Shown here piece after piece: positions 14,483 through 52,870 of a stretch of DNA of 64,000 bases (its first letter is position 1; each line of letters starts with the position of its first letter). Made by a program: the position numbers and the translations under genes. The stretch is from Sipunculus nudus (lineage: Eukaryota > Annelida > Sipuncula > Golfingiida > Sipunculidae), in the NCBI GenBank assembly GCA_026874595.1, contig CM049322.1, positions 9,410,400-9,474,399 on the forward strand, in the 5' to 3' direction. The notes beneath the pieces are model-generated. The model was not told where the DNA came from, did no database searches, and worked only from the letters and a program-made list of their open reading frames with translations.

Positions 14483-14581
<99 letters not shown>

Positions 14582-17986: not shown

Positions 17987-18042
<56 letters not shown>

Positions 18043-18149: not shown

Positions 18150-18195
<46 letters not shown>

Positions 18196-18583: not shown

Positions 18584-18635
<52 letters not shown>

Positions 18636-20692: not shown

Positions 20693-20749
20693 CGGTAAGT
20701 TAAAAAAAATGCAGGTTTAACTGACTTCAGAAACCTTACAATTTTATTC

Positions 20750-20989
20750 GTGGCGGTAGGTCCCCGGGGACGCTTCAGCGCCCTCACACTGCTTTTAGGT
20801 CGATAGGACCGGCCATACGTAGATTGCACGTTATCCGGTACCCATTTGTTATGCTGTGTGGACATAAGCACACTTGTGGCTGAGACCTTGAGGGTGTTAG
20901 CGAAGAAGTGAGAGGCTACAGGATTCGAACCCGTGACAGCTTGATCACATGTGTGGTACCTTCGCCATTGCACCACTTAGCTTCACGGT
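20750..20989 (-). mobile_element. tRNA-derived SINE, unit 5
   Basis: Same insertion, boxes intact. Variant matches units 1 and 6. Confidence 0.75.
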
Positions 20990-21716
20990 ATTGACCTTCG
21001 GATGAGATTGACATCTCAACCATTCAAGTATCTTTAGCACGTCTGGCTTAACAACCTGACTTTAAATCATTCAAGCAATCATTTTAGATTAAAATAAATT
21101 TGCACACGTGGAGTTTTTAACGTGGAAATTTTAAAGATAGAATGGTATATGTGTCAGTAAATTTTTCAGTAAAGGACACCGCCCAATAAAAGCATGCAAC
21201 ATTTTAATAAGCTCTTATAAAATCAACAACAAAACTTTGAAGCTGGGCTTATTCAGGGAACAGAGTAAGGTGAACTAGATGTTCTTTTTACATTAGTTTG
21301 CTTGAATTATCCATTGTGACGGATATGATAGCAAGGGGGGGGGGGGGGTAACTTGCCACTCAACAATGACCTTTTAATTTTCTGTTCGGAAATAAACTGG
21401 CGGATCAAGTGACGTGTTAGCTAATCGTATCAGGTCTGAAGAACTTTGTAGGCTAAGAAGTTTGTAGTGACTGATACATGTACGAAAAAGAAGGAAGAGT
21501 TTTGCTTAGTAAAGAGCGGTAAAGGAAATTATATCTGCATATGGTACAGGTAAATGTATTAAGCTCATAATAACCTGAGGGCAATGTGACTCATATATAT
21601 ATATAAAATCGATTGCCATTACGTCTTTAGGTGTTATAATTAGGGGCGCCTTTGATGGTAATGAAGAGTGTAATGATACAAGGTCTGCCAAGTACAAGTG
21701 AGAGCAACAGTCAGTG

Positions 21717-21776
<60 letters not shown>

Positions 21777-22463
21777 GATGATCAAAAGTGTAATCCGAAA
21801 TGTCTGTGTAAACGGTGCTTTAATTAAAGTTGTGGCACCTCGATCGATAATTAATTTAAGATCACACGGATATATGATTTAAATCGAAATTTGCACTTGT
21901 CATTGTCAGAAATGTAACGTTTTTTTTTTTCTAAAAATTCCACGATCCAGATAGTGATCGTGATCTCCTAAAAATTTAGTTAGTTGTCCCTTGTTTCATT
22001 GCCGAGCTGTCCTGCAAATTTGATCAAAATCCGTTCTAAGTAATATTGCTAACAGTCAGACAAAAAAGAAACAAACAAAAAAACAATTGTCACCAAAACA
22101 TTTACCCGCTTGGCGTGGGTTATGAAGCACAAAGCAAGCAAGAGTTTGATATATATTGTTGATACATATTATATATATATATATATACATATATATTGTT
22201 GATATATATTACTGTATATTTGGATATTTTGTTCCTGAAAAAGTGTAAGTGTTCAATAGTCCCCGGGGCTTTAAATATGAAGAAAAAATTCTGATTGCCT
22301 GATGTGAAGGCAATTATTTGGAGAATCACATGAGATTTTGGAAGGGGGTCTGTGTCAGCATTTGAGGGGTTATTGAAAATATGACCATATTGCAGAGTTG
22401 TTTTTGTATAATTATATTAACTAGACACTCTTTATGTGATTAATTAATTAAAATGAAATGCAG

Positions 22464-22624
22464 AATTGACAAGGTGACTGCTTTGGATGAGGTAGTAGGA
22501 ATATTTAGTGACGGACACTTTGACCCTCGAGACATTCTGAGCATCACAGACGCTAAGCCCTGCCCTTCTTAAGGCCCTCGCCAATTAAATATGAGTTTGA
22601 GTCTCTGTAATACTTCCATAGCAG
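22464..22624 (+). pseudogene. Exon-like segment, unit 5 copy, nonsense
   Basis: The codon AAA in the SKGP stretch is TAA here (near 22570), truncating the frame before the glycosylation sequons. Confidence 0.4.
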
Positions 22625-23962
22625 GTAATGTTACGTAATAAACTAATTATGGCGCCATGTTTTTGGATGTAAAACATGAGGTTATGTTCTCCTGGAGATA
22701 TTATTTATAGGTTTTTGTTACTACCGAGTAAAATAATATGGTAATTAATACAACATAGTCAAATGAAATACGAAACATACCACAATACTGGAACTGAAAT
22801 TTATTTAAATGAGAGAATTAACCCACATTCTTAGATCTCAGTAGACGGGACCTCTTATGAGTAGTACTAAAGGTACGTTTTTAAATGTTATTCTAGAAGT
22901 AACACAAATTTTATTCGAGTGGACAAAAACATCACGACTGTGATTTCTTGTACATATATTGAACTATTGATTTCGTTATAATACACATGAATATTATTAT
23001 AGACATTGGTTTGCAGTCTCTATATTGATTACGACAGCCAGCCATATGGAAATGCCAAAGGATTCTGATTCATGGCATAGGGTCAAACTTATCCCTGTAC
23101 AATCTAAGATAAACGGAGTGACATTTGCACACCAACCTCAATCCTGAGAACATCCCATTAACCGCGTCATTCATTATGTCCAAAATATTTTGCCGGTGAT
23201 AAGTTTTCTGCCTTTTTCTGTCATTCCGCAGGGAAAGCGTTTTTTATCGCCCGAAAAGCCCCAGACTGTTTTTTGCCACAAAGGAAGACTTTTGTTTTGT
23301 CAGGCAAATGTTTCGATGCTATAATATATCTTGGACAGACCCGAAGTGGTGACATATTAGAGTCACAGGCTGCGTATAGTGGTTATTCTAAATACGACTG
23401 ACGTTAGTCCAAACTAAGCAAAGTCATGCATATTGGATTTTCCTCAGAATACCTACCAGGACCTTTCAGCATGTGAACTTGCAGGGTTTTTTCTTACTTT
23501 AATTGCTGGATATATATATAAGCATGTCCCTAAGGGCATCAAAACCACTTCCTGTTCCAATTGTCCAGGAATCCGCTAAAAGTAAGGGCAAATTGACCTG
23601 ACGTCTCTCCATACTCTGGCACATTCCACCTAAATAATCCGCGGCATCCATCATCTGTCATCCCATATCCCTTCAATAAGGTCACACGACGCATCAGCTG
23701 CAGACAGCAACGAAAACATACTAAGAGCTCTGCACTTTCATCAGGTACTGAGGTGGATTGGCTACCTATCAGTATATGATTAAACATATACTGTCCAGAA
23801 TTATCAACGCTACACGCAACATTCGCACACTCTTTTGACGCGGTCAAACCCTCGCTATTAAAACCAAACTTTTTATCAACACGGAGTTACTTGTCTCACT
23901 GGGATTTAAACCTTAAGGCTGTAATGATAGTAACAGCGACATATTTTTCGACAAAGGTTATA

Positions 23963-24256
23963 ATGAGTAGGGCACTGGCGTCATTGCTGTCCATGTGTCT
24001 TTCATTTTGTCTGGTGGATGGACAGTCAACATATAACAAAGACAGTGCCCTATTTCAGCCTGTTCCTGACGTAGTTATTTCCAGTTATGGTAAAAATTCA
24101 ATTGATTTTACTATTTTTAAAATACATAGAATTGACAATATATCAATCATTTAATATATATTTAAAATTAATATTTGCAATACAGGAAGACTATGCCTTA
24201 TTCCTTTGGACAAGCGTTTACACAAAATTATTGACCTTTTAAAGAAAGATATATAA
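23963..24256 (+). CDS. Candidate 65-aa secreted peptide, unit 6
   Basis: Exons 23963-24089 and 24186-24256. All sites and the reading frame are intact as in unit 2. The one difference I noticed lies in the intron (tacata instead of tacgta). Confidence 0.3.
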
Positions 24257-24314
24257 GCGGTAAGTTAAAAAAAATGCAGGTTTAACTGACTTCAGAAACC
24301 TTACAATTTTATTC

Positions 24315-24554
24315 GTGGCGGTAGGTCCCCGGGGACGCTTCAGCGCCCTCACACTGCTTTTAGGTCGATAGGACCGGCCATACGTAGATTGCACGTTATC
24401 CGGTACCCATTTGTTATGCTGTGTGGACATAAGCACACTTGTGGCTGAGACCTTGAGGGTGTTAGCGAAGAAGTGAGAGGCTACAGGATTCGAACCCGTG
24501 ACAGCTTGATCACATGTGTGGTACCTTCGCCATTGCACCACTTAGCTTCACGGT
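24315..24554 (-). mobile_element. tRNA-derived SINE, unit 6
   Basis: Same insertion, boxes intact. The upstream flank shares a T (attttattcg) only with unit 5. Confidence 0.75.
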
Positions 24555-25281
24555 ATTGACCTTCGGATGAGATTGACATCTCAACCATTCAAGTATCTTT
24601 AGCACGTCTGGCTTAACAACCTGACTTTAAATCATTCAAGCAATCATTTTAGATTAAAATAAATTTGCACACGTGGAGTTTTTAACGTGGAAATTTTAAA
24701 GATAGAATGGTATATGTGTCAGTAAATTTTTCAGTAAAGGACACCGCCCAATAAAAGCATGCAACATTTTAATAAGCTCTTATAAAATCAACAACAAAAC
24801 TTTGAAGCTGGGCTTATTCAGGGAACAGAGTAAGGTGAACTAGATGTTCTTTTTACATTAGTTTGCTTGAATTATCCATTGTGACGGATATGATAGCAAG
24901 GGGGGGGGGGGGGTAAATTGCCACTCAACAATGACCTTTTAATTTTCTGTTCGGAAATAAACTGGCGGATCAAGTGACGTGTTAGCTAATCGTATCAGGT
25001 CTGAAGAACTTGGTAGGCTAAGAAGTTTGTAGTGACTGATACATGTACGAAAAAGAAGAAGGAGTTTTGCTTAGTAAAGAGCGGTAAAGGAAATTATATC
25101 TGCATATGGTACAGGTAAATGTATTAAGCTCATAATAACCTGAGGGCAATGTGACTCATATATATATATAAAATCGATTGCCATTACGTCTTTAGGTGTT
25201 ATAATTAGGGGCGCCTTTGATGGTAATGAAGAGTGTAATGATACAAGGTCTGCCAAGTACAAGTGAGAGCAACAGTCAGTG

Positions 25282-25337
<56 letters not shown>

Positions 25338-26022
25338 GATGATCAAAAGTGTAATCCGAAACGTCTGTGTAAACGGTGCTTTAATTAAAGTTGTGGCACC
25401 TCGATCGATAATTAATTTAAGATCACACGGATATATGATTTAAATCGAAATTTGCACTTGTCATTGTCAGAAATGTAACGTTTTTTTTTCTAAAAATTCC
25501 ACGATCCAGATAGTGATCGTGATCTCCTAAAAATTTAGTTAGTTGTCCCTTGTTTCATTGCCGAGCTGTCCTGCAAATTTGATCAAAATCCGTTCTGAGT
25601 AATATTGCTAACAGTCAGACAAAAAAGAAACAAACAAAAAAACAATTGTCACCAAAACATTTACCCGCTTGGCGTGGGTTATGAAGCACAAAGCAAGCAA
25701 GAGTTTGATATATATTGTTGATACATATTATATATATATATATACATATATATTGTTGATATATATATTACTGTATATTTGGATATTTTGTTCCTGAAAA
25801 AGTGTAAGTGTTCAATAGTCCCCGGGGCTTTAAATATGAAGAAAAAATTCTGATTGCCTGATGTGAAGGCAATTATTTGGAGAATCACATGAGATTTTGG
25901 AAGGGGGTCTGTGTCAGCATTTGAGGGGTTATTGAAAATATGACCATATTGCAGAGTTGTTTTTGTATAATTATATTAACTAGACACTCTTTATGTGATT
26001 AATTAATTAAAATGAAATGCAG

Positions 26023-26183
26023 AATTGACAAGGTGACTGCTTTGGATGAGGTAGTAGGAATATTAAGTGACGGACACTTTGACCCTCGAGACATTCTGAG
26101 CATCACAGACGCTAAGCCCTGCCCTTCTAAAGGCCCTCGCCAATTAAATATGAGTTTGAGTCTCTGTAATACTTCCATAGCAG
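26023..26183 (+). CDS. Exon-like segment, unit 6 copy
   Basis: Open. One private Phe to Leu change (ATTAAGTGAC) in the otherwise constant GIFSDG stretch. Confidence 0.35.
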
Positions 26184-27520
26184 GTAATGTTACGTAATAA
26201 ACTAATTATGGCGCCATGTTTTTGGATGTAAAACATGAGGTTATGTTCTCCTGGATATATTATTTATAGGTTTTTGTTACTACCGAGTAAAATAATATGG
26301 TAATTAATACAACATAGTCAAATGAAATACGAAACATACCACAATACTGGAACTGAAATTTATTTAAATGAGAGAATTAACCCACATTCTTAGATCTCAG
26401 TAGACGGGACCTCTTATGAGTAGTACTAAAGGTACGTTTTTAAATGTTATTCTAGAAGTAACACAAATTTTATTCGAGTGGACAAAAACATCACGACTGT
26501 GATTTCTTGTACATATATTGAACTATTGATGGCGTTATAATACACATGAATATTATTATAGACATTGGTTTGCAGTCTCTATATTGATTACGACAGCCAG
26601 CCAATGGGAAATGCCAAAGGATTCTGATTCATGGCATAGGGTCATACTTATCCCTGTACAATCTAAGATAAACGGAGTGACATTTGCACACCAACCTCAA
26701 TCCTGAGAACATCCCATTAACCGCGTCATTCATTATGTCCAAAATATATTGCCGGTGATAAGTTTTCTGCCTTTTTCTGTCATTCCGCAGGGAAAGCGTT
26801 TTTTATCGCCCGAAAAGCCCCAGACTGTTTTTGCCACAAAGGAAAACTTTTGTTTTGTCAGGCAAATGTTTCGATGCTATAATATATCTTGGACAGACCC
26901 GAAGTGGTGACATATTAGAGTCACAGGCTGCGTATAGTGGTTATTCTAAATACGACTAACGTTAGTCCAAACTAAGCAAAGTCATGCATATTGGATTTTC
27001 CTCAGAATACCTACCAGGACCTTTCAGCATGTGAACTTGCTGGGTTTTTTCTTACTTTAATTGCTGGATATATATATAAGCATGTCCCTAAGGGCATCAA
27101 AACCACTTCCTGTTCCAATTGTCCAGGAATCCGCTAAAAGTAAGGGCAAATTGACCTGACGTCTCTCCATACTCTGGCACATTCCACCTAAATAATCCGC
27201 GGCATCCATCATCTGTCATCCCATATCCCTTCAATAAGGTCACACGACGCATCAGCAGCAGACAGCAACGAAAACATACTAAGAGCTCTGCACTTTCATC
27301 AGGTACTGAGGTGGATTGGCTACCTATCAGTATATGATTAAACATATACTGTCCAGAATTATCAACGCTACACGCAACATTCGCACACTCTTTTGACGCG
27401 GTCAAACCCTCGCTATTAAAACCAAACTTTTTATCAACACGGAGTTACTTGTCTCACTGGGATTTAAACCTTAAGGCTGTAATGATAGTAACAGCGACAT
27501 ATTTTTCGACAAAGGTTATA

Positions 27521-27814
27521 ATGAGTAGGGCACTGGCGTCATTGCTGTCCATGTGTCTTTCATTTTGTCTGGTGGATGGACAGTCAACATATAACAAAGA
27601 CAGTGCCCTATTTCAGCCTGTTCCTGACGTAGTTATTTCCAGTTATGGTAAAAATTCAATTGATTTTACTATTTTTAAAATACGTAGAATTGACAATATA
27701 TCAATCATTTAATATATATTTAAAATTAATATTTGCAATACAGGAAGACTATGCCTTATTCCTTTGGACAAGCGTTTACACAAAATTATTGACCTTTTAA
27801 AGAAAGATATATAA
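27521..27814 (+). CDS. Candidate 65-aa secreted peptide, unit 7
   Basis: Exons 27521-27647 and 27744-27814, intact. Start codon, donor, acceptor and stop lie at the same offsets from the unit start as in unit 2. Confidence 0.3.
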
Positions 27815-27872
27815 GCGGTAAGTTAAAAAAAATGCAGGTTTAACTGACTTCAGAAACCTTACAATTTAATTC

Positions 27873-28100
27873 GTGGCGGTAGGTCCCCGGGGACGCTTCA
27901 GCGCCCTCACACTGCTTTTAGGTCGATAAGACCGGTCATACGTAGATGCCACGTTATCCGGTACCCATTTGTTATGCTGTGTGGACATAAGCACACTTGT
28001 GGCTGAGACCTTGAGGGTGTTAGCGAAGAAGTGAGAGGCTACAGGATTCGAACCCGTGACAGCTTGGTACCTTCGCCATTACACCACTTAGCTTCACGGT
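27873..28100 (-). mobile_element. tRNA-derived SINE, unit 7, 12-bp deletion
   Basis: 228 bp instead of 240. Twelve bases (gatcacatgtgt) between the A and B boxes are gone, shortening the promoter spacing. One A-box base is also changed (gcc att aca cc). Confidence 0.75.
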
Positions 28101-28826
28101 ATTGACCTTCGGATGAGATTGACATCTCAACCATTCAAGTATCTTTAGCACGTCTGGCTTAACAACCTGACTTTAAATCATTCAAGCAATCATTTTAGAT
28201 TAAAATAAATTTGCACACGTGGAGTTTTTAACGTGGAAATTTTAAAGATAGAATGGTATATGTGTCAGTAAATTTTTCAGTAAAGGACACCGCCCAATAA
28301 AAGCATGCAACATTTTAATAAGCTCTTATAAGATCAACAAGAAAACTTTGAAGCTGGGCTTATTCAGGGAATAGAGTAAGGTGAACTAGATGTTCTTTTT
28401 ACATTAGTTTGCTTGAATTATCCATTGTGACGGATATGATAGCAAGGGGGGGGGGGGGTAACTTGCCACTCAACAGTGACCTTTTAATTTTCTGTTCGGA
28501 AATAAACTGGCGGATCAAGTGACGTGTTAGCTAATCGTATCAGGTCTGAAGAACTTTGTAGGCTAAGAAGTTTGTAGTGACTGATACATGTACGAAAAAG
28601 AAGGAAGAGTTTTGCTTAGTAAAGAGCGGTAAAGTTAATTATATCTGCATATGGTACAGGTAAATGTATTAAGCTCATAATAACCTGAGGGCAATGTGAC
28701 TCATATATATATATAAAATCGATTGCCATTACGTCTTTAGGTGTTATAATTAGGGGCGCCTTTGATGGTAATGAAGAGTGTAATGATACAAGGTCTGCCA
28801 AGTACAAGTGAGAGCAACAGTCGGTG

Positions 28827-28927
<101 letters not shown>

Positions 28928-29643
28928 GATGATCAAAAGTGTAATCCGAAACGTCTGTGTAAACGGTGCTTTAATTAAAGTTGTGGCACCTCGATCGATA
29001 ATTAATTTAAGATCACACGGATATATGATTTAAATCGAAATTTGCACTTGGATGGCGCAGATCTCCGCCTTATGTCATTGTCAGAAATGTAGCGTTTTCT
29101 CTTTCTAAAAATTCCACGATCCAGATAGTGATCGTGATCTCCCAAAAATTTAGTTAGTTGTCCCTTGTTTCATTGCCGAGCTGTCCTGCAAATTTGATCA
29201 AAATCCGTTCTGAGTAATATTGCTCACAGTCAGACAAAAAAGAAACAAACAAAAAAACAATTGTTACCAAAACATTTACCCGCTTGGCGTGGGTTATGAA
29301 GCACAAAGCAAGCAAGAGTTTGATATATATTGTTGATACATATTATATATATATATATATATACATACATATGTATTGTTGATATATATTACTGGATATT
29401 TGGATATTTTGTTCCTGAAAAAGTGAAAGTGTTCAATAGTCCCCGGGGCTTTAAATATGAAGAAAAAATTCTGATTGCTTGATGTGAAGGCAATTATTTG
29501 GAGAATCACATGAGATTTTGGAAGGTGGTCTGTGTCAGCATTTTAGGGGTTATTAAAAATATGATCATATTGCAGAGTTGTTTTTGTATAATTATATTAA
29601 CTAGACAACTTTTATGTGATTAATTAATTAAAATGAAATGCAG

Positions 29644-29804
29644 AATTGACAAGGTGACTTCTTTAGATGAGGTAGTAGGAATATTTAGTGACGGACACTT
29701 TGACCCTCGAGACATTCTGAGCATCACAGACGCTAAGTCCTGCCCTTCTAAAGGCCCTCGCCAATTAAATATGAGTTTGAGTCTCTGTAATACTTCCATA
29801 GCAG
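29644..29804 (+). CDS. Exon-like segment, unit 7 copy
   Basis: Open. Ser variant with Pro to Ser next to the first Cys. Gln retained. Confidence 0.35.
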
Positions 29805-31141
29805 GTAATGTTACGTAATAAACAAATTATGGCGCCATGTTTTTGGATGTAAAACATGAGGTTATGTTCTCCTGGAGATATTATTTATAGGTTTTTGTTA
29901 ATACCGAGTAAAATAATATGGTAATTAATACATCTAAGTCAAATGAAATACGAAACATACCACAATACTGGAACCGAAATTTATTTAAATGAGAGAATTA
30001 ACCCACATTCTTAGATCTCAGTAGACGGGACCACTTATGAGTAGTACTAAAGGTACGTTTTTAAATGTTATTCTAGAAGTAACACAAATTTTATTCGAGT
30101 GGACAAAAACATCACGACTGTGATTTCTTGTACATATATTGAACTATTGATGGCGTTATAATACACATGAATATTATTACAGACATTGGTTTGCAGTCTC
30201 TATATTGATTACGACAGCCAGCCAATGGGAAATGCCAAAGGATTCTGATTCATGGCATAGGGTCATACTTATCCCTGTACAATCTAAGATAAACGAAGTG
30301 ACATTTGCACGCCAACCTCAATCCTGAGAACATCCCATTAACCGCGTCATTCATTATGTCCAAAATATATTGCCGGTAATACGTTTCTGCCTTTTTCTGT
30401 CATTCCGCAGGGAAAGCGTTTTTTATCGCCCGAAAGGCCCCAGACTGTTTTTTGCCACAAAGGAAGACTTTTGTTTTGTCAGGCAAATGTTTCGATGCTA
30501 TGATATATCTTGGACTGACTCGAAGTGGTGACATATTAGAGTCACAGGCTGCGTATAGTGGTTATTCTAAATACGACTGACGTTAGTCCAAACTAAGCAA
30601 AGTCATGCATATTGGATTTTCCTCAGAATACCTACCAGGACCTTTCAGCATGTGAACTTGCTGGGTTTTTTCTTACTTTAATTGCTGGATATATATATAA
30701 GCATGTCCCTAAGGGCATCAAAACCACTTCCTGTTCCAATTGTCCAGGAATCCGCTAAAAGTAAGGGCAAATTGACCTGACGTCTCTCCATACTCTGGCA
30801 CATTCCACCTAAATACTCCTCGGCATCCATCATCTGTCATCCCATATCCCTTCAATAAGGTCACACGACGCATCAGCTGCAGACAGCAACGAAAACATAC
30901 TAAGAGCTCTGCACTTTCATCAGGTACTGAGGTGGAATGGCTACCTATCAGTATATGATTAAACATATACTGTCTAGAATTATCAACGCTACATGCAACA
31001 TTCGCACACTCTTTTGACGCGGTCAAACCCTCGCTATTAAAACCACACTTTTTATCAACACGGAGTTACTTGTCTCACTGGGATTTAAACCTTAAGGCTG
31101 TAATGATAGTAACAGCGACATATTTTTCGACAAAGGTTATA

Positions 31142-31436
31142 ATGAGTAGGGCACTGGCGTCATTGCTGTCCATGTGTCTTTCATTTTGTCTGGTGGATGG
31201 ACAGTCAACATATAACAAAGACAGTGCCCTATTTCAGCCTTGTTCCTGACGTAGTTATTTCCAGTTATGGTAAAAATTCAATTGATTTTACTATTTTTTA
31301 AATACTTAGAATCGACAATATATCAATCATTGAATATATATTTAAAATTAATATTTGCAATACAGGAAGACTATGCCTTATTCCTTTGGACAAGCGTTTA
31401 CACAAAATTATTGACCTTTCAAAGAAAGATATATAA
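31142..31436 (+). pseudogene. Peptide gene copy, unit 8, frameshifted
   Basis: Carries the extra T and the shared Leu-to-Ser change in the second exon. Confidence 0.35.
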
Positions 31437-31494
31437 GCGGTAAGTTAAAAAAAATGCAGGTTTAACTGACTTCAGAGACCTTACAATTTAATTC

Positions 31495-31734
31495 GTGGCG
31501 GTAGGTCCCCGGGGACGCTTCAGCGCCCTCACACTGCTTTTAGGTCGATAGGACCGGCCATACGTAGATTGCACTTTATCCGGTATCCATTTGTTATGCT
31601 GTGTGGACATAAGCACACTTGTGGCTGAGACCTTGAGGGTGTTAGCAAAGAAGTGAGAGGCTACAGGATTCGAACCCGTGACAGCTTGATCACATGTGTG
31701 GTACCTTCGCCATTGCACCACTTAGCTTCACGGT
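31495..31734 (-). mobile_element. tRNA-derived SINE, unit 8
   Basis: Same insertion, boxes intact. Variant as in units 3 and 4. Confidence 0.75.
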
Positions 31735-32463
31735 ATTGACCTTCGGATGAGATTGACATCTCAACCATTCAAGTATCTTTAGCACGTCTGGCTTAACAAC
31801 CTGACTTTAAATCATTCAAGCAATCATTTTAGATTAAAACAAATTTGCACACGTGGAGTTTTTAACGTGGAAATTTTAAAGATAGAATGGTATATGTGTC
31901 AGTAAATTTTTCAGTAAAGGACACCGCCCAATAAAAGCATGCAACATTTTAATAAGCTCTTATAAAATCAACAAGAAAACTTTGAAGCTGGGCTTATTCA
32001 GGGAATAGAGTAAGGTGAACTAGATGTTCTTTTTGCATTAGTTTGCTTGAATTATCCTTTGGTGACGGATATGATAGCAAAGGGGGGGGGGGGGGTAACT
32101 TGCCACTCAACAGTGACCTTTTAATTTCCTGTTCGTAAATAAACTGGCGGATCAAGTGACGTGTTAGCTGATCGTATCAGGTCTGAAGAACTTTGTAGGC
32201 TAAGAAGTTTGTAGTGACTGATACATGTACGAAAAAGAAGGAAGAGTTTTGCTTAGTAAAGAGCGGTAAAGGAAATTATATCTGCATATGGTACAGGTAA
32301 ATGTATTAAGCTCATAATAACCTGAGGGCAATGTGACTCATATATATATATAAAATCGATTGCCATTACGTCTTTAGGTGTTATAATTAGGGGCGCCTTT
32401 GATGGTAATGAAGAGTGTAATGATACAAGGTCTGCCAAGTACAAGTGAGAGCAACAGTCAGTG

Positions 32464-32507
<44 letters not shown>

Positions 32508-33191
32508 GATGATCAAAAGTGTAATCCGAAACGTCTGTGTAAACGGTGCTTTAATTAAAGTTGTGGCACCTCGATCGATAATTAATTTAAGATCACACGG
32601 ATATATGATTTAAATCGAAATTTGCACTTGTCATTGTCAGAAATGTAACGTTTTTTTTCTAAAAATTCCACGATCCAGATAGTGATCGTGATCTCCTAAA
32701 AATTTAGTTAGTTGTCCCTTGTTTCATTGCCGAGCTGTCCTGCAAATTTGATCAAAATCCGTTCTGAGTAATATTGCTAACAGTCAGACAAAAAAGAAAC
32801 AAACAAAAAAACAATTGTCACCAAAACATTTACCCGCTTGGCGTGGGTTATGAAGCACAAAGCAAGCAAGAGTTTGATATATATTATTGATACATATTAT
32901 ATATATATATATATACATATATATTGTTGATATATATTACTGGATATTTAGATATTTTGTTCCTGAAAAAGTGTAAGTGTTCAATAGTCCCCGGGGCTTT
33001 AAATATGAAGAAAAAATTCTGATTGCTTGATGAGAAGGCAATTATTTGGAGAATCACATGAGATTTTGGAAGGGGGTCTGTGTCAGCATTTGAGGGGTTA
33101 TTGAAAATATGATCATATTGCAAAGTTGTTTTTGTATAATTATATTAACTAGACACTCTTTATGTGATTATTTAATTAACATGAAATACAG

Positions 33192-33324
33192 AATTGACAA
33201 GGTGACTTCTTTGGATGAGGTAGTAGGAATATTTAGTGACGGACACTTTGACCCTCGAGACATTCTGAGCATCACAGACGCCAATTAAATATGAGTTTGA
33301 GTCTCTGTAATACTTCCATAGCAG
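33192..33324 (+). pseudogene. Exon-like segment, unit 8 copy, deleted
   Basis: A 28-nt deletion removes the KPCPSKGPR region and shifts the frame to a stop. The donor is also weakened to GTTATG and the acceptor context is changed (atacag). Confidence 0.4.
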
Positions 33325-34469
33325 GTTATGTTACATAATTAACTAATTATGGCGCCATGTTTTTGGATGTAAAACATGAGGTTATATTCTCCTGGAGATA
33401 TTATTTATAGGTTTTTGTTACTACCGAGTAAAATAATATGGTAATTAATACAACTTAGTCAAATGAAATACGAAACATACCACAATACTGGAACCGAAAT
33501 TTATTTAAATGAGAGAATTAACCCACATTCTTAGATCTCAGTAGACGGGACCACTTATGGGTAGTACTAAAGGTACGTTTTTAAATGTTATTCTAGAAGT
33601 AACACAAATTTTATTCGAGTGGACAAAAACATCACGACTGTGATTTCTTGTACATATATTGAACTATTGATGGCGTTATAATACACATGAATATTATTAT
33701 AGACATTGGTTGGCAGTCTCTATTTTGATTACGACAGCCAGCAAATAGGAAATGCCAAAGGATTCTGATTCATGGCATAGGGTCATACTTATCCCTGTAC
33801 AATCTAAGATAAACGGAGTGACATTTGCCCACCAACCTCAATCCTGAGAACATCCCATTAACCGCGTCATTCATTATGTCCAAAATATATTGCCGGTAAT
33901 AAGTTTTCTGCCCTTTTCTGTCATTCCGCAGGGAAAGCGTTTTTTATCGCCCAAAAAGCCCCAGACTGTTTTTTGCCACAAAGGAAGAATTTTGTTTTGT
34001 CAGGCAAATGTTTTGATGCTATGATATATCTTGGACGGACTCGAAGTGGTGACATATTAGAATCACAGGCTGCGTATAGTGGTTATTCTAAATACGACTG
34101 ACGTTAGTCCAAACTAAGCAAAGTCATGCATATTGGATTTCCTCAGAATACCTACCAGGACCTTTCAGCATGTGAACATGCTGTTTTTTTTCTTACTTAC
34201 TTCAATTGCTGGATGGCTCGCCGGAACGGACGGTCGACAGAAAAGGGACCATCCCTACAGTTCAGTTGATTTAAAGTCAGTCCTGATTAAATAAGCGGCT
34301 TTATTTTTATCTTGGGTTTACCTTTATCTTTTTATTTGTCATTGTATTTTGAAAATAAAGCGATCGTCAATAAGGGTCACCAGGTGTTCCATTTCAAGTT
34401 ATGCCCCGGTAGTAGAGAATTGTTTTCAGCTAATTTAGTATTCATCGTGCTAAAGAATAAAGGTGAGGC

Positions 34470-36791: not shown

Positions 36792-36838
36792 ATGGAGACA
36801 AGTAACAACATGGTCCAAGCAAGTACATTTGGTCCCAA
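36792..36838 (+). CDS. Candidate first coding exon (D1)
   Basis: The ATG opens METSNNMVQASTFGP and the exon ends at a perfect donor, CCCAA|GTAAGT, leaving two bases (phase 2). Phase 2 is what the array exon needs upstream. Intact in both duplicates. Product unknown. If it belongs to the receptor family it would be the extreme extracellular N-terminus. A minus-strand 65-aa frame over the same bases is also conserved between copies and cannot be excluded. Confidence 0.35.
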
Positions 36839-43254: not shown

Positions 43255-43400
43255 TCCAATGAAGTACTGATGACGTCAGGATATCCATGCGAATGTTCCC
43301 GCCTTTATTTACAGTTGAAATATCGATTAAGAAAACTAGCCAACAGGAAGCGCGAACCAGTTATGTTGCACACGCTTTGATTATATTTATTCCAGCGCAA
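43255..43400 (+). promoter_or_regulatory. Candidate promoter with CCAAT and CRE (D2)
   Basis: D2 partner: CCAAT near 43257, TGACGTCA at 43271-43278, and a TATA-like tatatttat about 105 bp downstream. Confidence 0.45.
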
Positions 43401-43488
43401 CCTGAAAAATGACAGCCTATCGTCAACGCCATTCCCGTGTCTAACTAGGCAGCAGAGCACCTGTTCAACTACTGTAACAGAGGTATAT

Positions 43489-43535
43489 ATGGAGACAAGT
43501 AACAACATGGTCCAAGCAAGTACATTTGGTCCCAA
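43489..43535 (+). CDS. Candidate first coding exon (D2)
   Basis: Same 47 bases and donor GTAAGT as the D1 copy. It lies 8.4 kb upstream of, and on the same strand as, the receptor exon. If the gene model holds, this copy rather than the D1 copy would be the working first exon. Confidence 0.35.
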
Positions 43536-43676
43536 GTAAGTACTCTGGATATTGAATTAATATTTAGTGTGTCGGTTATTGTGTATTTAATTGGGAAATA
43601 AGTCCTACTCTGCTGCTCCTCGTTATGTCCAATGTCTTCGTAAACGTAGAAAAATGTCATTCTCATATTTGCAGTT

Positions 43677-44270
43677 CATTTGTTTTGCATCTGTAACAAT
43701 TTTCAATATCATTCAAGTTAATAGTTACAATCAGAATTGTGAATTTTCATGAAACTACAGCAACAAAACGATCGTTTTCATTTTATTACCTCAGTGCCGT
43801 TTCCCTTATTATTTGCCTTTGTACAATATATGTATATTTGCGTGTGCCCGGAAGTAATTTATTTCTAAGGTTAAATGTAGGGAAGTTTATTTTCTGAAGT
43901 GTGATAATGTTCATGTTAAGTATCCAAACTTTGAACAGAGTTAGTATATTTTTGTATATTGTACTTTGCAGGATACATTATTTATTATTTAGATAAATTA
44001 CGAAGGACAGTTGAAGTTGCATGGTCCTTAAACATTATTTTAATGAACTTGACGTACTTAGATGTGATCTTGCAAGTAACATAATTAATAAAAAAAACTG
44101 GTATTTTTAGGCAGGAGAATTTTTTCTTGAGATTTGTTTAGCTTTCTTAAACATTACCTTAAATAGTTGCTCATTGAGTACTTGTCATATACTGATTTTT
44201 TTCTCCACGAAATAGCATTGAAAAATTATTAAATTATTCAGAGCTGGTTGACCTATTAACATTTAACTGG

Positions 44271-44314
<44 letters not shown>

Positions 44315-44534
44315 ATAAATGTTCACATTATTTATAATACTTTCGACTATTTTTGTTTCAAATCAAAAGGCTTCGTTTGTGTTAAAGGAAAGCATGTTAC
44401 AGGCTAAAATTAAAGAAATCATGTAAATCTAAAAGTCAAAGTCTCTGTTTCGGGTATGCTGGACATTTTTTTAAAATCCATCATCTGGCATTCATCAAAA
44501 TATAAAAGAAAATTGATAGGATCAACTAGTTTCT
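43677..44534. other. Single-copy-looking interval
   Basis: AT-rich, with a (TA)n tract at 44275-44312. No gene recognised. Confidence 0.5.
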
Positions 44535-45850
44535 TTTTTCTCAAAGTTGCCATATAAAAAGATGGGGATTATATTCACACCTTTCATAAAATGCATATTT
44601 CAATGGATCCTAGAGCAGTAATATAGGAACACTTTGTTACCTCAAATTTATATAAAAGACGTTGAAGTGGGATTGGTAGGTTTGCCTAAAGCCTCTGGCA
44701 AAGAGCCTCGTAGAGATGGCAATATCAGGGTAATGACAAGACAATCCGTTTGAATGCCTTTGTGTAAACTCGTCTTATTCTTTCTCACGGAATCTTACAT
44801 AACATGTCACAGCAATAATGATAACATAGAGGCAAGATAACATAAACATGAAAAGCAATCAGTTTTGATACTGTACTATACATAAACTCATGTATTTGAG
44901 TTTACATCATGGAATTTCAAGTTGTATTAATAGACACTAACGTACATGTTACGTGAGCGCTAAGTTTCCCATAACTTGTCCATCAGGTTTTCTAACATTA
45001 GGTAAATTATTTGGCCTCCATGCTGTAGCTATAAAGCGTGGTCTGCAAAACAGATATGTCTTATCGAAAACTAAGTCATCATGTCTCTATTTGAGCCAGC
45101 ACTGAAGAAACCAAGAGAATTAACCGTATTGACGAATATCGTGGAAACGTTTAGTGTGCATCGTGAACCTGCCAGCTTTTAACAAAATTGTCAGCTAAGA
45201 AAAAAAAATAATTTTGCAAATCAAACCTCATTAGCTAAATATTCTTCACCTGAAGAATTTATAGTAAATGTGAATACATCATTAGGATTACATCATTTGA
45301 AATACAACAGAATCTTATTTGTTATTCTGCTAATTTAAGATTTTGTTATTTGTTTAGAAGCCCCCCTCCCCAGGTCCCTTTTTCCGTGTATTTTTTCTAG
45401 TGCTAGATGGAAAATTTGGTTTGACATATTTCGAATCCTGAACTTGTATTGGCCTGTTTGTGGTGTGCATTCAAAGTCTGAAACCTTCTTATCTGGTCTT
45501 ATCCTTTTCCGCAGAGATTGTATGAATGAAAGGTTTGTACAAGAGTGTTATAATTAAAGGCCTCGTAAAGGGGAGTTGATGGAAGGTGTATTGATTAAAG
45601 GCGTGGCTCCAAGGCAATGGTGCATCTGAGATGGAGAAGAAAGCAATATTAACGATCTTATATACCTATGTAAGGTGTTTTATTGTAAGAATTTTCTTTA
45701 CTCATTACTTTGATGCTTCGACGGCATTGAAATAGAGCCTACATTTCCATTTAATCTCATATTTCCTGCAAATAGTATATACAGTTACATGTAGGCTATT
45801 CATTATGAAGATAGAAAGTTCTGATATTCTATGACAGTAGTCGTTAAAGT
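44535..45850 (+). repeat. Block E, copy 2
   Basis: Second copy, equal in length to copy 1 to within a few bases, flanked by unrelated sequence on both sides. I found no convincing terminal inverted repeats or target duplication, so the mechanism of duplication is open. Confidence 0.85.
45116..45182 (+). pseudogene. Diverged relative of the array exon (block E copy 2)
   Basis: Same reading as the copy at 39.4 kb, identical over the matched stretch including the stop after PASF. Confidence 0.35.
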
Positions 45851-45974
45851 ATGTACTATGGAGCCGCCAGGGTCAAGACTATAGCCATTCATAGATGGAT
45901 GCCAGATGGACGGGTCTCCTTTGGATAGGTCGGATTATTTCTCACCCCAACTGGAAGGTTACTAGTCAGACGCT

Positions 45975-48770
45975 TTATAGTTTACAGTTTGTTGAATTTA
46001 TAAAGCGCCACAATAAACATGTACAACATGTATACTAATCATTTGCGCTGTACTGACTAAAATTCAAATAATACATTCACCAGGAGATCAATTAAGATGA
46101 TTCTATAACGAATCGTATGAAATTAAAATATAATACAATATCAAGATCTGATAAAATAAAGACTGATAAGACTAAACCTAAATTAAATATAAAATGATGA
46201 CAATAAGATTTTATGCGATGGTGTATATATTGCATATGGTAGGCAGTTGTAAATAAATTAGTTTTTAATATAACTTTAAATGCAATAATACGAGTAATCT
46301 CTTGGCGTTTGATGTATTTCGGAAATATATTCCAAACGTCTGGCGCAGCATTGGTGAGAGACCTTGACGCCAATGTCTCTTTCCTTGTCTTAGGAACCAC
46401 ATACATATTAGGTTGACCGGACCTTTGAGCACGGCTCTGATTATGCTGTTTAATTAAACGAGAAACATATTCGGGTGCCTGGCTATTCAAGCACTTTAAT
46501 ACCAAAAGAGATATTTTGTTTTCCATCCGTGAAAATAACAGAAGACAGTGAAGATCCTTTATCAACGGAGTTACAATATCAAATCTGTGCTCCACATACC
46601 ACTCTGGCTGTACTGTTCTGTATTTTTTGCCAGCTACTAACCATACTTGGGGCAGCCTCAAAGTAAAGAATAAGAATAATCCATATTTGAGATTACAAAA
46701 GACTGAATAGGTTCGTCAACTGTTGATTTGTCTAGAAAATTTTTTGATCCAACAACAAAATGTTTGAATAAAAAATTACGCCCAGGTTCCTTATTTTATT
46801 CACTGGCCTTATTCGTGCATTCCCTACTTTTATTTCATTGACATTTACTTTGGTTAGCTGTTGTTCCAGCTTACAGAAATTCAGTTTTGTTGTCGTTAAT
46901 TTTTAGTCCTTTGGTCAGCATCCATGCCATGCCATCTGAAATACATTTCCGTTTCTTTACAACCTGGTTAGTACGCTAAGCAAAGTTGGTGATCATCAGC
47001 ATAGCCCCATATGGATGACGAGGGTTTCTCCAGAGGGACCTTAGAAAGCTTAGAAATATCACAGGACCGGAACAGCTTCCCTTCGGAACTCAATATTTCA
47101 AATTATACTTATCAGAGATAGCGCTGTTTACTATCAACCTCTCCTCCTGATTACACAGGTATGACTGAACCCAGTTCAATGCAGATTCCCCAATGGTATA
47201 TTGTGTCTAAAAAATCAAAGATGACTCTATTAAAAGCTGTACTTAGATCCTGGAGTACATGAAGGGTAACTTTTCTATCAGCCGTGCTGTTGAACAGTTC
47301 AGAATCAACCTTGACAAGCAGGTTTCAGCGCTATTGTATTTTATATGGTGCGCTTTTATTTGCAAACATATTGCTTCTTCCCTGGTGATCTACGTACTGT
47401 GAAAGTTCAGCATTTTCTATAAATTTTGAGACAAATGATAGATGGCTGACCGTTCTATATTTTTTATAATTAAGTTCAACTCCCTATTTCTGTAACAGTG
47501 GAGACTCAACCGCGCAGTTTAAGCCGTGTGTAACAGATCCTTCCAGTCATGAACTTTTCACATTTATATTATTAACTTGAAAGGCCATCACTGCACTGTT
47601 TCCAGCCGTCAATCAATACTGCGTCTAGAATTCATGATTTTGTTGGTGACTGAGAGACCAATTGTCTTATCTCCGAAGCTGGCAAAGTTTTAAAAGGGGA
47701 AAAATACTCAGCAGCTGTTCTGTTAAGTTCCCTATAATTTATCACATTCTTGATGTTCTCAATCTGAATTTTTATTTCAATGTCACTAATGATATAATTA
47801 ATTTTAACAATAAAAAGTCACTGAATCATTCACATAATATGTAGTCATTTTCACATAGAGGATAGGGTGTTACAGATTTACCTTTCGTCAATTCCCATTC
47901 GTTCTTCCTCAATCCAGATTTAATTCATTTATCCTCTGCTTTACGTTTCGTTTTCTCCAGTTCTTTTAGCTATATGTTGTTCCACGTAATCCCTGTTTTA
48001 TATGTATAGTTTTTCGAACAACTGGAGCATGAGTATATATAATTTCTTTTAGTACCCAATCATAAATTATAGCTTTCTGATGAACATTTTATTTCCAATT
48101 TCAGTCAGATCACTTGACCTCATGTAAATTTTAAATTTGTTTATATATATATATTTCTTTATTTTTTCCTAAATAACATTTCTTCATTTCAGTCTCTGGT
48201 TTGGCTTGTACTATGTATCCTTTACAAATGTGTGATCAGAATTAAAGTACCTTTCGTGAGGGGGTTGTAGCAATACACCATCGCCTTGCATGATAATAAG
48301 TAGATTAAGAGAGTGACCTGATTATTAAGTGGCTGAGGATACATGATTTGTCCCAAGTACAGAGTGAAATCCTTTATAAAATCAATTAGTGTAGCGGGCT
48401 TATAGTAGTAAGGTGGTCTAAAACAACTATAACATGAAGTTTGTCATCTCAAAATCCACTCTCGAAGTCAAATATTTTCATTTGGCCAGCTGATATTCGT
48501 TTTGGATTCATGATCTGTTTACAGACAATACCCTTACCCCCACTTGCTTGTTCGGGTCTTGGACAGTGGTTTCAGTGACCAAGCAAAAATCATAACCATC
48601 AGTGATAATGTTATCTACAGAACTGATCCATTTTTATACCTAATCGATTCACACAGACAACAGTATTGCTTGATTAAGGAAATATTTTCACACGGACAAA
48701 ATCTGTATTCCATATATTCCATTATTTATTTTCTATTGTCTGTACCTGAAATTAACGGGTCTCTTTGACC
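45975..48770 (-). mobile_element. Decayed L2/CR1-like LINE
   Basis: Reading the minus strand 5' to 3', fragments line up with a non-LTR element in the right order. Endonuclease pieces lie at about 48640-48220 (a YDFCLVTET-like stretch, then RPPY...DFIKDF, then a PTH..GHT-like stretch). RT motif pieces are NYKKYRTVSHLSFVSKFIE (about 47460), LHVLQDLSTAFN (about 47230), LNWVQSYL (about 47160), VPKGSCSGP (about 47070), YADDHQL (YADD at 46992-47003) and GLKINDNKTEF (about 46900). The C-terminal tail frame at 46092-46661 contains VPKTRKETLASRSLTNAAPD. A 3' end with ggcgctttataaat follows at about 45990-46010. Frame changes and stops make it inactive. Confidence 0.85.
46092..46661 (-). pseudogene. 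LINE ORF2 C-terminal region
   Basis: The longest surviving frame of the element. Residues about 25-140 show the usual tail of L2/CR1-type reverse transcriptases: a TPLIKDLH stretch, LVLKCLNSQAPEYVSRLI, and a VPKTR...RSLTNAAPDVWN stretch. Residues after about 150 are 3'-flank translation. It lacks the polymerase motifs, which lie in other frames upstream. Confidence 0.85.
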
Positions 48771-50699
48771 CAATAGTTATTTTTTCAAAATCTAGCAAAG
48801 GTAAAGACTTCAGTTTCCGATAAATATGTAACGGTACCTTATCATTATTTTGTCCAATATCCGTCAGCGTGGACGGATTGTGACGTATGTGTGGCATGGT
48901 AATTGTAAACAAAATCGGTCCCAATCCTAGTCCAGGTAAAATGTCTTTAAAAACACAGACCACAACTGTAGAATAACACTGTTCACTAGTTTCCAGACAT
49001 GTGGCAGTGCTGGAAAGGCTACCGTTATCCAGTTATAGATTAAAACTCCTCCGAAGTATCACACCAAAATGAAAACTGCAGCTAAAACTCGGCGCATGCG
49101 CATGCTTCATCAATAACTTAAGGGATACATAGACTACGCAGACTTATCAAAGAATAATATTTTATAAATACCATTTCGAATATAAATATGTAAATATAGG
49201 ACATTCTGAAACGTCCTGAAAAATGCATTGCTGATTGCCATAGACGACTCGGTTGAATTGCAATATGCTAAAGCAATGCACTGTCCAATTGTATATAACT
49301 GGTCACATATTAACCGAAGTTTTGTCAACCTTTGTCTTCACATAATGTTTGTGTGCATTATCCGGCATCGCGGCTCAAGCTCACACTGTTTTATTTTTAT
49401 TGAAATGACAAGTAACGAGGTGTAATCACTGAAACACGGCCTCACTTTCGTATTGAATGCGTATAGTGTTAAACTATTGTTGGGTCAGTATCATTCAGTT
49501 TAATCAACTCCTTGCAATGCAATGACAGAGAAACGTGTGCATGTTGAAGCTCTAAGACTCAGTTGAAGAATATGATACAAAAAGAGACAATACTTGTTTA
49601 ATAAAGGTATTTCATCTTGCATGGTATTCTTCCTTATTTATACCTGACAGCGTGTGGACGAATCACCCCATAAGGCACTGTATTGTATATTGGACTACCC
49701 TAATTGATATGTCAATGATATGTTTCCATAAATAAAAAACTAGGTAATGACAGAAAAATTTCACCTGAAATGTTGAATATGATTTGAAGGTTTATATAAG
49801 GTTTGAAATGATTTTACTGTAAACGCCATTGTTTGAGCCCTATAAGGAGTAATAATATACGATTAACTGAATAAATGAATAAATCACTTACAGAACCAGT
49901 ACTTACAGGAAAAGCAATTCATCACATTTCCAATATGTAGCATATTATACAAAGCAAGTTTATATACCTTTATTTAACACTCAAAAAATATTATAAAAGG
50001 ACAGGTGAATTTGACCACCAGCTGCAGCTTTAATAATTTCTGACCTTGTCATGTTTTTCTCCGAAATCATAAATTAATGGATTACCTCCACCCGAGAAAA
50101 ACACGAAACTAAAACCTCAACTAATATATCTATCTGAATCTACAGTATTAAGGACATTTTAATCAACCTTCATGGCCTAAAACCGACCCTTTACTTTAAA
50201 TATATACTGTACTCACAAACGTACTTATGAACATAAATATATACACACTCATATACTTTACTATAATAATGCATATTTTATGTTTGTAAAATGCAAAGCA
50301 ATACAATATTTATTATTTTTGCATGTTTCTTTCCTGCTTCCCTAATCGATATTTTATTTTATAAGAGTGTTGAGAGGTAAGTTTTTTCTAGTTCCCTATC
50401 ATCTACCATAACCCTTTGTGAATATAACAAAAATTAGCCTCTGGACAGAAATTACCCCAGAGACTTTGGGTGTCTTTTGTCACGGCCGTGCTCATATCTT
50501 CCCTTGGTATACGCATTTTATTAGCACCGTATAATATACATGCCATTATTATACCATATATTTCCACGTATATTTACACTGTAGTTACAAATTGTGTGCA
50601 GGTAGAAACTGGAGTACCTAAGGGGGTGGTCAAGGCAGGCCGCCCCGCAGCCGGTGTTGAGAGGTGGCATTGTTATGATTACGTATAATAGAAAGCATG
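48771..50699. other. AT-rich interval with no clear feature
   Basis: Short frames only. A GC-rich pocket at about 50603-50660 follows an acceptor-like tgtgtgcag and is open to a stop (VETGVPKGVVKAGRP...), but there is nothing to tie it to a gene. Confidence 0.4.
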
Positions 50700-51170
50700 A
50701 GGTTTACATTTATAAGTAACATAATAACTCATCAGTTTTGATAGTGTAGTGTTTATTCTTAAGCTAACATATTGGAGATTACATCAAGGGAATTTCAGGT
50801 TGTATTGATAGGTACTATCACAAAGTTTTCATAGGCTAAATTCTTATAATTAGTTCATTTACTTCTTTTAGAACATTTGGTAAATTCTGAACCTTCCATG
50901 CGGAAGCTTTGGAGCGTAGTCTGCAAATTGTGAAAATATCTGGTCGAAAACTGCTCCACCTATCAAGAAACTAAAGGAATATTCCGTGTTGACAAGCACC
51001 GGGGAAATGTTAAACGTGCATTGTAAACCTATCATAGTCTCCACAAAATCATTTGCTAAGAAACAAGTTAAGTTTGTGAATTCAACCTAAAATATGGCAA
51101 ATTCATTAGTTAATGAATTTCAAAGGAAAAGTGAAAGGTGGATATAATTAAACAAGCCAGTAGAAATAGG
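50700..51170 (+). repeat. Block E, diverged third copy (partial)
   Basis: Collinear with 44860-45330 but much diverged. Shared landmarks are cagttttgata, ggaatttca[ag]gttgtattgata/taga, a ctaacattaggtaaatt/agaacatttggtaaatt segment, gcgt[ag]gtctgcaaa, and tcgaaaact. It lies just upstream of the receptor exon. Confidence 0.7.
50965..51090 (+). CDS. Third diverged exon-like stretch, 0.9 kb before the receptor exon
   Basis: The frame reads ...KEYSVLTSTGEMLNVHCKPI and continues to a stop at 51088, ending QVKFVNST. It aligns with the 39.4-kb relative (VLTs..E...VH..P) and more loosely with the array exon, including a terminal N-glycosylation sequon. It lies upstream of and on the same strand as the receptor exon, where its N-terminal exon would be expected. 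No clear phase-1 donor was identified, so it may itself be a relic. Confidence 0.3.
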   Translation, partial: KKLKEYSVLTSTGEMLNVHCKPIIVSTKSFAKKQVKFVNST

Positions 51171-51537
51171 TGTGTTTCATTTTTTACATGCTCCTTTAAA
51201 TATCTTTACCTACAACTATCTATATAAAAACAATGTATCATTTACGATTTCTTTTGTATATTTAGATATGAGTATACGCTTCTTACAGAGTGAATACATG
51301 TGGTTCAAGCTTGACTGAGTATAAAGTTATATCATGAATATTTATTTGAGTAACAAATGATATTTTGATATAGAAAAACGGCGTATTGGCCGGCAGGTCA
51401 GTGGCGCTTTTCACATATACCAGTACATAATTACATAATACCTATGAATTGGTACAATCCTTTATAAACACTATCAGGGGAGGAACGTGTTGTGGTTCTG
51501 TGTGTCACTTCTACTTCATAGTGCTTCCACTATTTAA

Positions 51538-51586
<49 letters not shown>

Positions 51587-51920
51587 CTAATTATGTGTGT
51601 ATATTTACGAGAATCACCAGGCAACCCCATTCAATGTGACTGTTAATGATTGTTGCAGAGAATCTGAAACGATACATAGTTTTTTCTTGGAATTTATTGC
51701 AATTTCTTTATATTTTAAATGACGTTTTTATTGAAAGTTTGGCAACTTAAATAAACCATATCTTGATACCAAGAGGTTCATGGACTTACCAGAGCATGCA
51801 TATCACATTACATTGCATCTGACAGGGCTTACATCAAGTACCATTCTTACCAAGTATTCCTTTATGTTTTATCTTGAAGATGGGTCAATACATCGATTAT
51901 TGGACATGCTTTCTCATCAG
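51171..51920. other. Presumed intron upstream of the receptor exon
   Basis: Contains a (TA)n tract at 51540-51582. It ends in ctttctcatcag, a reasonable 3' splice site. The receptor frame is closed by a stop at 51875 and has no ATG after it, so the coding sequence must enter by splicing. Confidence 0.55.
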
Positions 51921-52870
51921 TTGGAATAACGTCAGCACCAGACATTGTTGATGAACCAGAGGACTTCACCGAAATTAAGTTCGGTCCATCCCAAACAACG
52001 GAATGGTACACTGTGACAGCGGGCGCTACATCTCTTGACCTGGAACTGTTTGGGACTATTTATAAGCAAGGGAAGGCAGCTCTAATGGCTATAAGCATAC
52101 TGTTTAACCTATTTGGGGCAATTCTAGTTTTTCGGGAAAAAAACCGCTCAAAGGCAATCTGTGGGTATCTGTGTTGTCTGTCCGTGACAAATATCGTTCA
52201 CGAAGCTTTCAATGCAACACGACTAATCATTGACTGGAACAAAAAAGTTCCTAGCCGAGTGTTTTGTTCACTGATTGGTTTCTGTTTGGTTACTTTGTTT
52301 TCCTTTTCTGCTTCATTGATTGTTGGCGTTTCCGTAATGCAGATGGGATCCATTGTTTTTCCGTTTAAGGCCAAGATTTGGTGGTCAAGGAAAAGGGTAT
52401 GGATAGGAATAATTATACAGTTAGTGGTGTTTGTGGCAATACACGGTGCAGTCTTTCTTTACGTAGAATTCAAAATGCCCTTTTGCGCCAGTGAACATGT
52501 AACACCAATCATAAATGTGTCTTATCAATTATCCGCAATCATCATACTGATAATATCAAGTACAATTTCATTACGTGGCTTAATTAAAGCAACAACTAAG
52601 CGACAAAATATGAAAGGTAGCCAAGGTCATGACACTTTAATAAACACGATTGCAAAGTTTAAAAGGACCACATTTGCATTATCTATAATGTATATCGCAG
52701 GTCATGCACCGCTCAGGTGTGTATTAATATGGAAATGGATCACGGGAGGTGGACATTTGTTCACTTATTGGGTATCAACTTTTTTTCCGATTATATTTAG
52801 AATAAGTCTTTTCTTTATATATGTAATTACAAACAAAGATCTGCGATCGCAAATTCACTGCTGCAAATAG
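51921..52870 (+). CDS. Divergent rhodopsin-like GPCR, terminal exon
   Basis: Seven hydrophobic helices lie in one exon. Numbered from the GTG at 52013, they are TM1 22-40, TM2 48-72, TM3 83-116, TM4 128-152, TM5 166-190, TM6 214-240 and TM7 248-272, then a short helix-8-like stretch (NKDLRSQI) and a terminal HCCK that could be palmitoylated. Cys85 at the top of TM3 and Cys158 in loop 2 could form the usual disulfide. N1.50 is kept (Asn32). DRY is replaced by MQM followed by VFPF. TM6 keeps the Pro (HAP) but not CWxP. NPxxY is reduced to LFFIY. The frame is open back to a TGA at 51875 without any ATG. The best entry is the acceptor at 51920, or an alternative at 51935, both phase 1. The ligand is unknown. 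The loss of activation motifs suggests unusual coupling or decay. Confidence 0.75.

Follow-up and report, generated by a model that had tools for sequence, protein, structure and literature searches.

Which of the exon-like elements in a 64,000-nucleotide stretch of Sipunculus nudus DNA belong to the receptor gene that lies in it, and what is the tandem array that precedes this gene? The stretch (the window, C17:9410400-9474399) was compared with its own genome, of which 1.43 Gb in 153 contigs was searched. The initial annotation had joined a short first exon, an exon repeated in the array, and an exon for a G protein-coupled receptor (GPCR) into one gene, and had supposed that an N-terminal exon was amplified into the array. 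The reading that we hold to be very probable is a different one, namely, a class A-like GPCR gene of two exons and an array of amplified 5′-flanking DNA.

The receptor exon lies in an open frame of 330 residues (51878-52870, plus strand) with a seven-transmembrane (7TM)-like layout. Seven close paralogues at 65-73% identity were found outside the window, on C17, C15, and C9, and five of them are intact; broken receptor fragments at 52-60% identity are excluded from this count. Out of 121 scored candidates, the genome search gave 93 matches to the receptor, a count that takes in the receptor itself and fragments. They form clusters on C2, C12, C13, C15, and C17 and several contain stops, so that the relatives have the multigene, clustered organisation with pseudogenes by which chemosensory receptor families are recognised. 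In all probability the receptor belongs to a local family with members on C17, C15, and C9. The ratio of nonsynonymous to synonymous substitution rates (dN/dS) ranged from 0.29 to 0.64 in 15 pairs among six copies, the broken L007/L008 being excluded, and by these values the coding sequence is constrained but fast-evolving.

The window protein on its own gave no match in Pfam (E up to 1) or in the PDB (E up to 10), and Pfam 7tm_1 was detected in two of eight family members only (best E 0.07), the window copy not being one of them. A profile of eight relatives, on the other hand, matched the ghrelin and neuromedin-U receptors of class A in the PDB with E values of 8e-5 to 1e-3, GHSR (the ghrelin receptor) being the best at 7.7e-5 and NMUR2 following at 1.6e-4; judging by their names, the 31 PDB sequences listed up to an E of 10 all belong to class A receptors or to chimeras made from such receptors. 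The AlphaFold2 model was of low confidence (predicted local distance difference test, pLDDT, 55; predicted template modelling score, pTM, 0.46), with long helices in a 7TM-like order. When this model was submitted to Foldseek, the 50 matches shown were GPCRs (best E 2e-5, query template modelling scores 0.41-0.59), at a remote sequence identity of 10-18%. DRY and NPxxY are the motifs expected of class A GPCRs; neither is kept at its expected place in the receptor alignment, where MQM stands for the first and RISLFFIY (window) or RISPFFIY (five paralogues) for the second. Considering all this, the earlier assignment of the exon to the GPCRs holds, and the window receptor can be seen, at best, as a divergent member of class A with a remote likeness to the ghrelin and neuromedin-U receptors.

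The window (WIN) was aligned with the receptor loci R2 (L002 with L009 and L010), R3 (L003, L011, L012), R4 (L004, L013, L014), R5 (L005, L018, L019), R6 (L006, L015-L017), and R78 (L007, L008, L020, L021), and with the more distant G30 (L030), G31 (L031), and L046. A phase-1 acceptor had been proposed for the receptor exon. What is conserved is an acceptor at 51879|51880, in phase 2: a T-rich tract and an AG stand directly before (A/G)TGGGTCA in seven of seven loci (L007, whose copy lacks the start of the exon, was left out). Of the 39 columns of 51881-51919 only 11 are variable, with 2, 3, and 6 changes at codon positions 1, 2, and 3, whereas 34 of 40 columns vary in the intron bases adjoining the acceptor, in an ungapped comparison that is inflated by indels. 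Because the AG and its phase are kept in all seven loci and coding-type constraint begins at this point, the exon should start at 51880; an acceptor at 51921 would lie inside conserved coding sequence. With a phase-2 acceptor at 51880, a first exon with a phase-2 donor joins directly, and a phase-1 donor would be out of frame with it. We therefore correct the gene model with high confidence to two exons.

The first exon at 43.5 kb was found again at every one of the seven receptor loci of the group examined, and the view of the receptor as a split gene with a short first exon stands. By alignment, R2 and R3 have two copies each and R4, R5, R6, and R78 one each, all of them 5′ of the receptor exon and on its strand. 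An inner ATG, at 43507, is common to the copies and is the more likely start, with 43489 as the other candidate. After the shared ATG come nine codons and two bases, then a GTAAGT or GTGAGT donor, which has GC in one R2 copy; the donor is in phase 2 in 10 of 10 copies that have a start codon (the copy at 598 is not counted), including that with GC for GT. The phase-2 ending claimed for the candidate first exons at 43.5 and 36.8 kb (AA|GTAAGT) is thus kept across copies. A profile detected 10 copies with E values of 4e-18 to 8e-15, nine of them being those from which it was built. Searching the genome with 43380-43600 (E 0.001) returned six matches, all at receptor loci of the window receptor's group. 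Two are in the window; each of the four outside has a close receptor paralogue 4.6-16.2 kb downstream on its own strand, which in one case is the broken pair L007/L008. The diverged copies R3b, R4, R5, and R6 were not reported by this search. The 36.8-kb copy is 98% identical to the 43.5-kb one over 112 bp and is a possible alternative first exon for the same peptide.

The DNA before the first exon, from 43260 to 43488, is 83% identical to the R3 locus and 64-65% identical to R2 and R78, and it is probably the promoter. Of the promoter and first exon proposed initially, the exon is borne out, and an exact TGACGTCA does stand 5′ of both first exons (43271 and 36575), where the window as a whole has 4 against 0.65 expected. 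Two more exact TGACGTCA sites lie at 4392 and 63385.

In the gene that we propose, transcription would pass from this promoter through a very short first coding exon (MVQASTFGP, with its start at ATG 43507 or 43489), and a single phase-2 intron of 8.3 kb would be spliced out before the receptor exon at 51880. The product would be a receptor of about 339-345 residues starting M-V-Q-A-S-T-F-G-P-K-W-V-N-T-S, with an outer N-terminus of about 65 residues and no upstream glycosylated exon. Vertebrate olfactory receptor genes have one or more short upstream exons, usually non-coding, a long intron, and one large coding exon. The window gene resembles them in its tiny upstream exon, long intron, single large 7TM exon, clusters, and pseudogenes, and differs in that its upstream exon holds the start codon. 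Among molluscs, the candidate chemosensory receptors AcCRa-c of Aplysia are described as rhodopsin-like, genomically clustered multigene families, of which subfamily b is intronless and subfamily a contains a single conserved intron that falls between ISLM and GLAV in the coding region (PMC2700072). By description the window receptor is similar in belonging to a clustered multigene family; unlike what is described for subfamily a, its intron comes after a first exon of 10 or 16 residues.

The array is a different matter. Its units, 94-100% alike over 0.9 kb, are collinear (6146-8729 and 9380-9835) with R4 4670-7454, and in R4 the first-exon match follows next, at 7467-7530. The units themselves contain no first exon detectable by the profile, nor any receptor match at E 1 with two sister-subfamily receptor proteins as queries. 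Their nearest kin, at 77-89%, flank a receptor subfamily with 24-27% protein identity to the window's. L046, the one locus examined in full among seven similar loci at C17 38.9-39.0 Mb, matches the unit over 9333-9982 (88%), 6581-7839 (77%), and 8181-8675 (79%), and its receptor is 24% identical to the window receptor by alignment and 27% in the genome search. In all seven L046-type loci the match to the flanking DNA starts at 8181, and the receptors lie 3.4-3.5 kb further 3′. In a tree of 8181-8675 the units group with L046, G30, and G31, apart from R4-R6, with a split support of 100/100, although the rooting is by midpoint only and G30 and G31 have sequence in 48% of the columns. From this grouping, the array derives most likely from the 5′ flank of the L046/G30/G31 sister subfamily, whose members G30 and G31 lie 96-115 kb upstream of the window receptor.

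Array DNA and receptor genes are indeed linked in the genome, as first suspected. The search with the flanking DNA gave 29 matches, 10 of them in the window, and 17 of the other 19 are within 13 kb 5′ of a receptor match and on its strand. What was amplified would be better described as 5′-flanking DNA than as an N-terminal exon. Each unit would consist of about 2.8 kb of sister-subfamily 5′-flanking DNA with about 0.6 kb of other sequence, tandemly duplicated without exons, and we infer that the array arose as a by-product of unequal exchange within the receptor-gene cluster. Array-like flanking DNA with no receptor match within 20 kb 3′ was seen at C17:9382112 and 9383836, either as a relic or beside an undetected gene, and G30 has a run of repeats of about 64 bp (L030 about 4823-5785), upstream of its receptor, which match one stretch of about 67 bp in L046.

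The 0.6 kb between the collinear parts of the unit include a dispersed repeat (about 9073-9322), which also occurs, at 66-80% identity, in 30 places beyond the window (C1, C2, C6, C7, C9, C10, C12-C15, C17). In the units it carries a minus-strand open reading frame (ORF) of 115 residues, with a 186-residue version at 37.1 kb (plus) and 41.6 kb (minus); these ORFs were rejected as genes, being in part dispersed repeat, and Pfam found nothing for the longer one. On the minus strand, near 6363-6530 and again within the array units, GGTTCGAATCC, which we take to be B-box-like, occurs in a sequence resembling a tRNA-derived short interspersed nuclear element (SINE); Rfam and ARAGORN (tRNA) scans of the window gave nothing.

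Could the array be at work as cis-regulatory DNA, eight copies of a receptor promoter or enhancer acting on the single receptor gene? The unit includes the DNA that adjoins the first exon in R4, R5, and R6, and it keeps its place 5′ of all seven L046-type receptors; but no sign of selection was found on the units, they stop before the first exon, and they are most like the flanks of another subfamily. We regard such a function as unlikely and the array as presumably mostly inert. Related to it is the speculation, quite improbable in our judgement, that a cis-regulatory cassette moves between GPCR subfamilies independently of the coding exons and that one cluster amplified it about eightfold, to give an array of enhancers or decoy promoters with a part in the choice of the receptor to be expressed; the literature searched held no report of such an array or of a shared upstream cassette. 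In their flanks R5 and L046 share 70% identity across 1,285 and 507 alignment columns, with proteins 25% identical, and either exchange after the split of the subfamilies or constraint may explain it. If functional, upstream DNA common to receptor subfamilies of about 25% identity would bear on the common regulation of chemoreceptor-like clusters during coding divergence.

It remains to consider the stretch of each unit that was taken for an exon. Its eight copies start at 8016, 11657, 15302, 18906, 22464, 26023, 29644, and 33192, and six are open in the frame that is entered in phase 2 and left in phase 1, one having a stop and one a 28 bp deletion. Elsewhere in the window than at 8.0-33.3 kb no copy was found by blastn (E 1e-3) or tblastn (E 10), except for a chance-level tblastn match at 55.6 kb on the minus strand (E 1.3). 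The exon-like relatives supposed to lie between the 43.5-kb first exon and the receptor exon are not there by either search on the plus strand, nor by a looser tblastn (E 50) between 43535 and 51880. Since copies were found only at 8.0-33.3 kb, no cis-spliced order that runs from a first exon at 43.5 or 36.8 kb through an array exon to the receptor is available. The stretch is also upstream of the first exon in the three of three paralogous loci that carry both, R4, R5, and R6, where it ends 0.46-0.56 kb before the first-exon match. All six relatives outside the window (C17:9340827 in G30, 9357562 in G31, and 9383993; C9:63518726 in R5; R4; R6) contain stops, and the five that were aligned (R4, R5, R6, G30, G31) have frame-breaking indels of 1, 5, 8, or 29+ bases; a C3 match (E 3.76, 34%) was excluded as chance. 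In the four relatives counted, codon position 1 has the most substitutions, which is not what a coding exon would show. Compared with R4, R5, and R6, the stretch itself has an identity of 68-71%, its near flanks one of 75-80%, and the DNA further 3′ one of 72-76%. The phases given for this element are right as read, but as a coding exon it is rejected for the frame breaks in its relatives, its order, and a phase that misfits the conserved acceptor; it has the look of decayed non-coding DNA such as lies upstream of related receptor genes. A signal-peptide-like ORF at 9515, considered as an alternative first exon of the array, was likewise rejected, with its start lost and frameshifts in relatives.

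As a non-coding 5′ exon the stretch would be free of its frame: transcripts would start in or before the array and join the donor at 8177 to an acceptor in the 5′ untranslated region near the first exon. The donor ranks in the top 2.4% of GTs (splice sites were scored by a general consensus and ranked against all AGs or GTs of the window), and the acceptor AG is kept in all five aligned relatives. Against this, the donor GT is kept in only two of the five (GA in G30 and G31, deleted in R6); the acceptor is purine-rich and poor, its score being equalled or exceeded by 73% of the plus-strand AGs of the window; identity in R4, R5, and R6 is no higher than in the flanks; and no match to the stretch was reported at any of the seven L046-type loci, which keep the DNA just 3′ of it, as read directly at L046. 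Eight acceptor-donor pairs that are equally good, spaced by 140-200 nt with an open frame between them, lie in 42-64 kb on both strands. We consider this role very unlikely. Least tenable, and extremely improbable, is the amplified N-terminal exon itself, a Cys-containing, glycosylated stretch spliced from the first exon and on to a phase-1 acceptor at 51921, for which the phases as first read, the good consensus score of 51921, the six open copies, and the array relatives near receptor genes would speak, but which has all array copies 5′ of both usable first exons, conserved coding sequence at 51881-51919, frame-broken relatives, and an out-of-frame join of the first exon (phase 2) to 51921 (phase 1).

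Some observations weigh against the two-exon gene with an array of flanking DNA. The acceptor at 51880 scores below that at 51921 (top 16% versus top 2% of AGs), and in the window its last bases (51877-51879) are AAG, where the six other loci have CAG (five) or TAG (one), so that the window copy may splice poorly or be losing normal splicing. The codons of the first exon have no synonymous bias in eight copies (proportions of synonymous and nonsynonymous differences, pS 0.27 and pN 0.27), and a first exon of the L046/G30 subfamily was not found by profile, alignment, or a conserved donor with ATG. The array stretch of G30 and G31 is 82-85% like the window's, against 76-79% in the right flank, and the constancy of its acceptor AG points in the same direction. 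Taken together, the case illustrates how paralogues of the same genome, when compared, distinguish a conserved exon from a frame left open by chance. Table 1 collects the features.

Table 1: Features of the window discussed in the text
Feature	Position	Strand	Remarks
Relic of a third first exon, R5-like	598..638	+	ATG to AAG, GTAAGT donor retained; profile E 5e-8; 86% to R5 over 73 bp
Tandem array	6120..34214	+	units of about 3.6 kb, spacing 3,520-3,645; largely receptor-gene 5′-flanking DNA
"Array exon" of the initial annotation, 8 copies	8016..8176 (first copy)	+	not a conserved coding exon
Unit part best shared with other receptor loci	8181..8675	+	79-80% at 7 L046-type loci; 71-77% to R4/R5/R6, alignment-dependent
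Signal-peptide-like ORF in array units	9515..9622	+	no start and a -1 shift in L046; also frameshifted in R4 and R6; +1 in 4 of 8 window copies
Second first-exon copy (duplicate block)	36792..36838	+	same phase-2 donor at 36839; inner ATG 36810
Probable promoter region	43260..43488	+	TGACGTCA at 43271-43278; ATATCGAT in 10 of 11 aligned copies
First coding exon	43489..43535	+	MVQASTFGP then AA; donor GTAAGT at 43536, phase 2
Single intron, 8,344 nt	43536..51879	+	donor and acceptor conserved; repeat debris inside
Receptor exon, 7TM, class A-like	51880..52870	+	acceptor AG 51878-51879, phase 2; stop 52868-52870

Within the intron, 43832-50061 aligns at 73% with the intron of R3. A 207-residue ORF on its minus strand (46092-46715), with decayed reverse-transcriptase-like sequence beside it (about 46.7-47.3 kb, minus), is presumably, from the look of the protein, the C-terminal part of the polyprotein of a non-long terminal repeat retrotransposon (long interspersed nuclear element, LINE); Pfam gave a single weak and unrelated match to this LINE-like sequence (E 0.099). 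The region 34741-43676 holds large inverted and direct duplicates (34741-35395 with 37652-36998, 36998-37987 with 42251-41257, and 35755-36979 with 42417-43676), which carry the second first-exon copy and may be prone to recombination.

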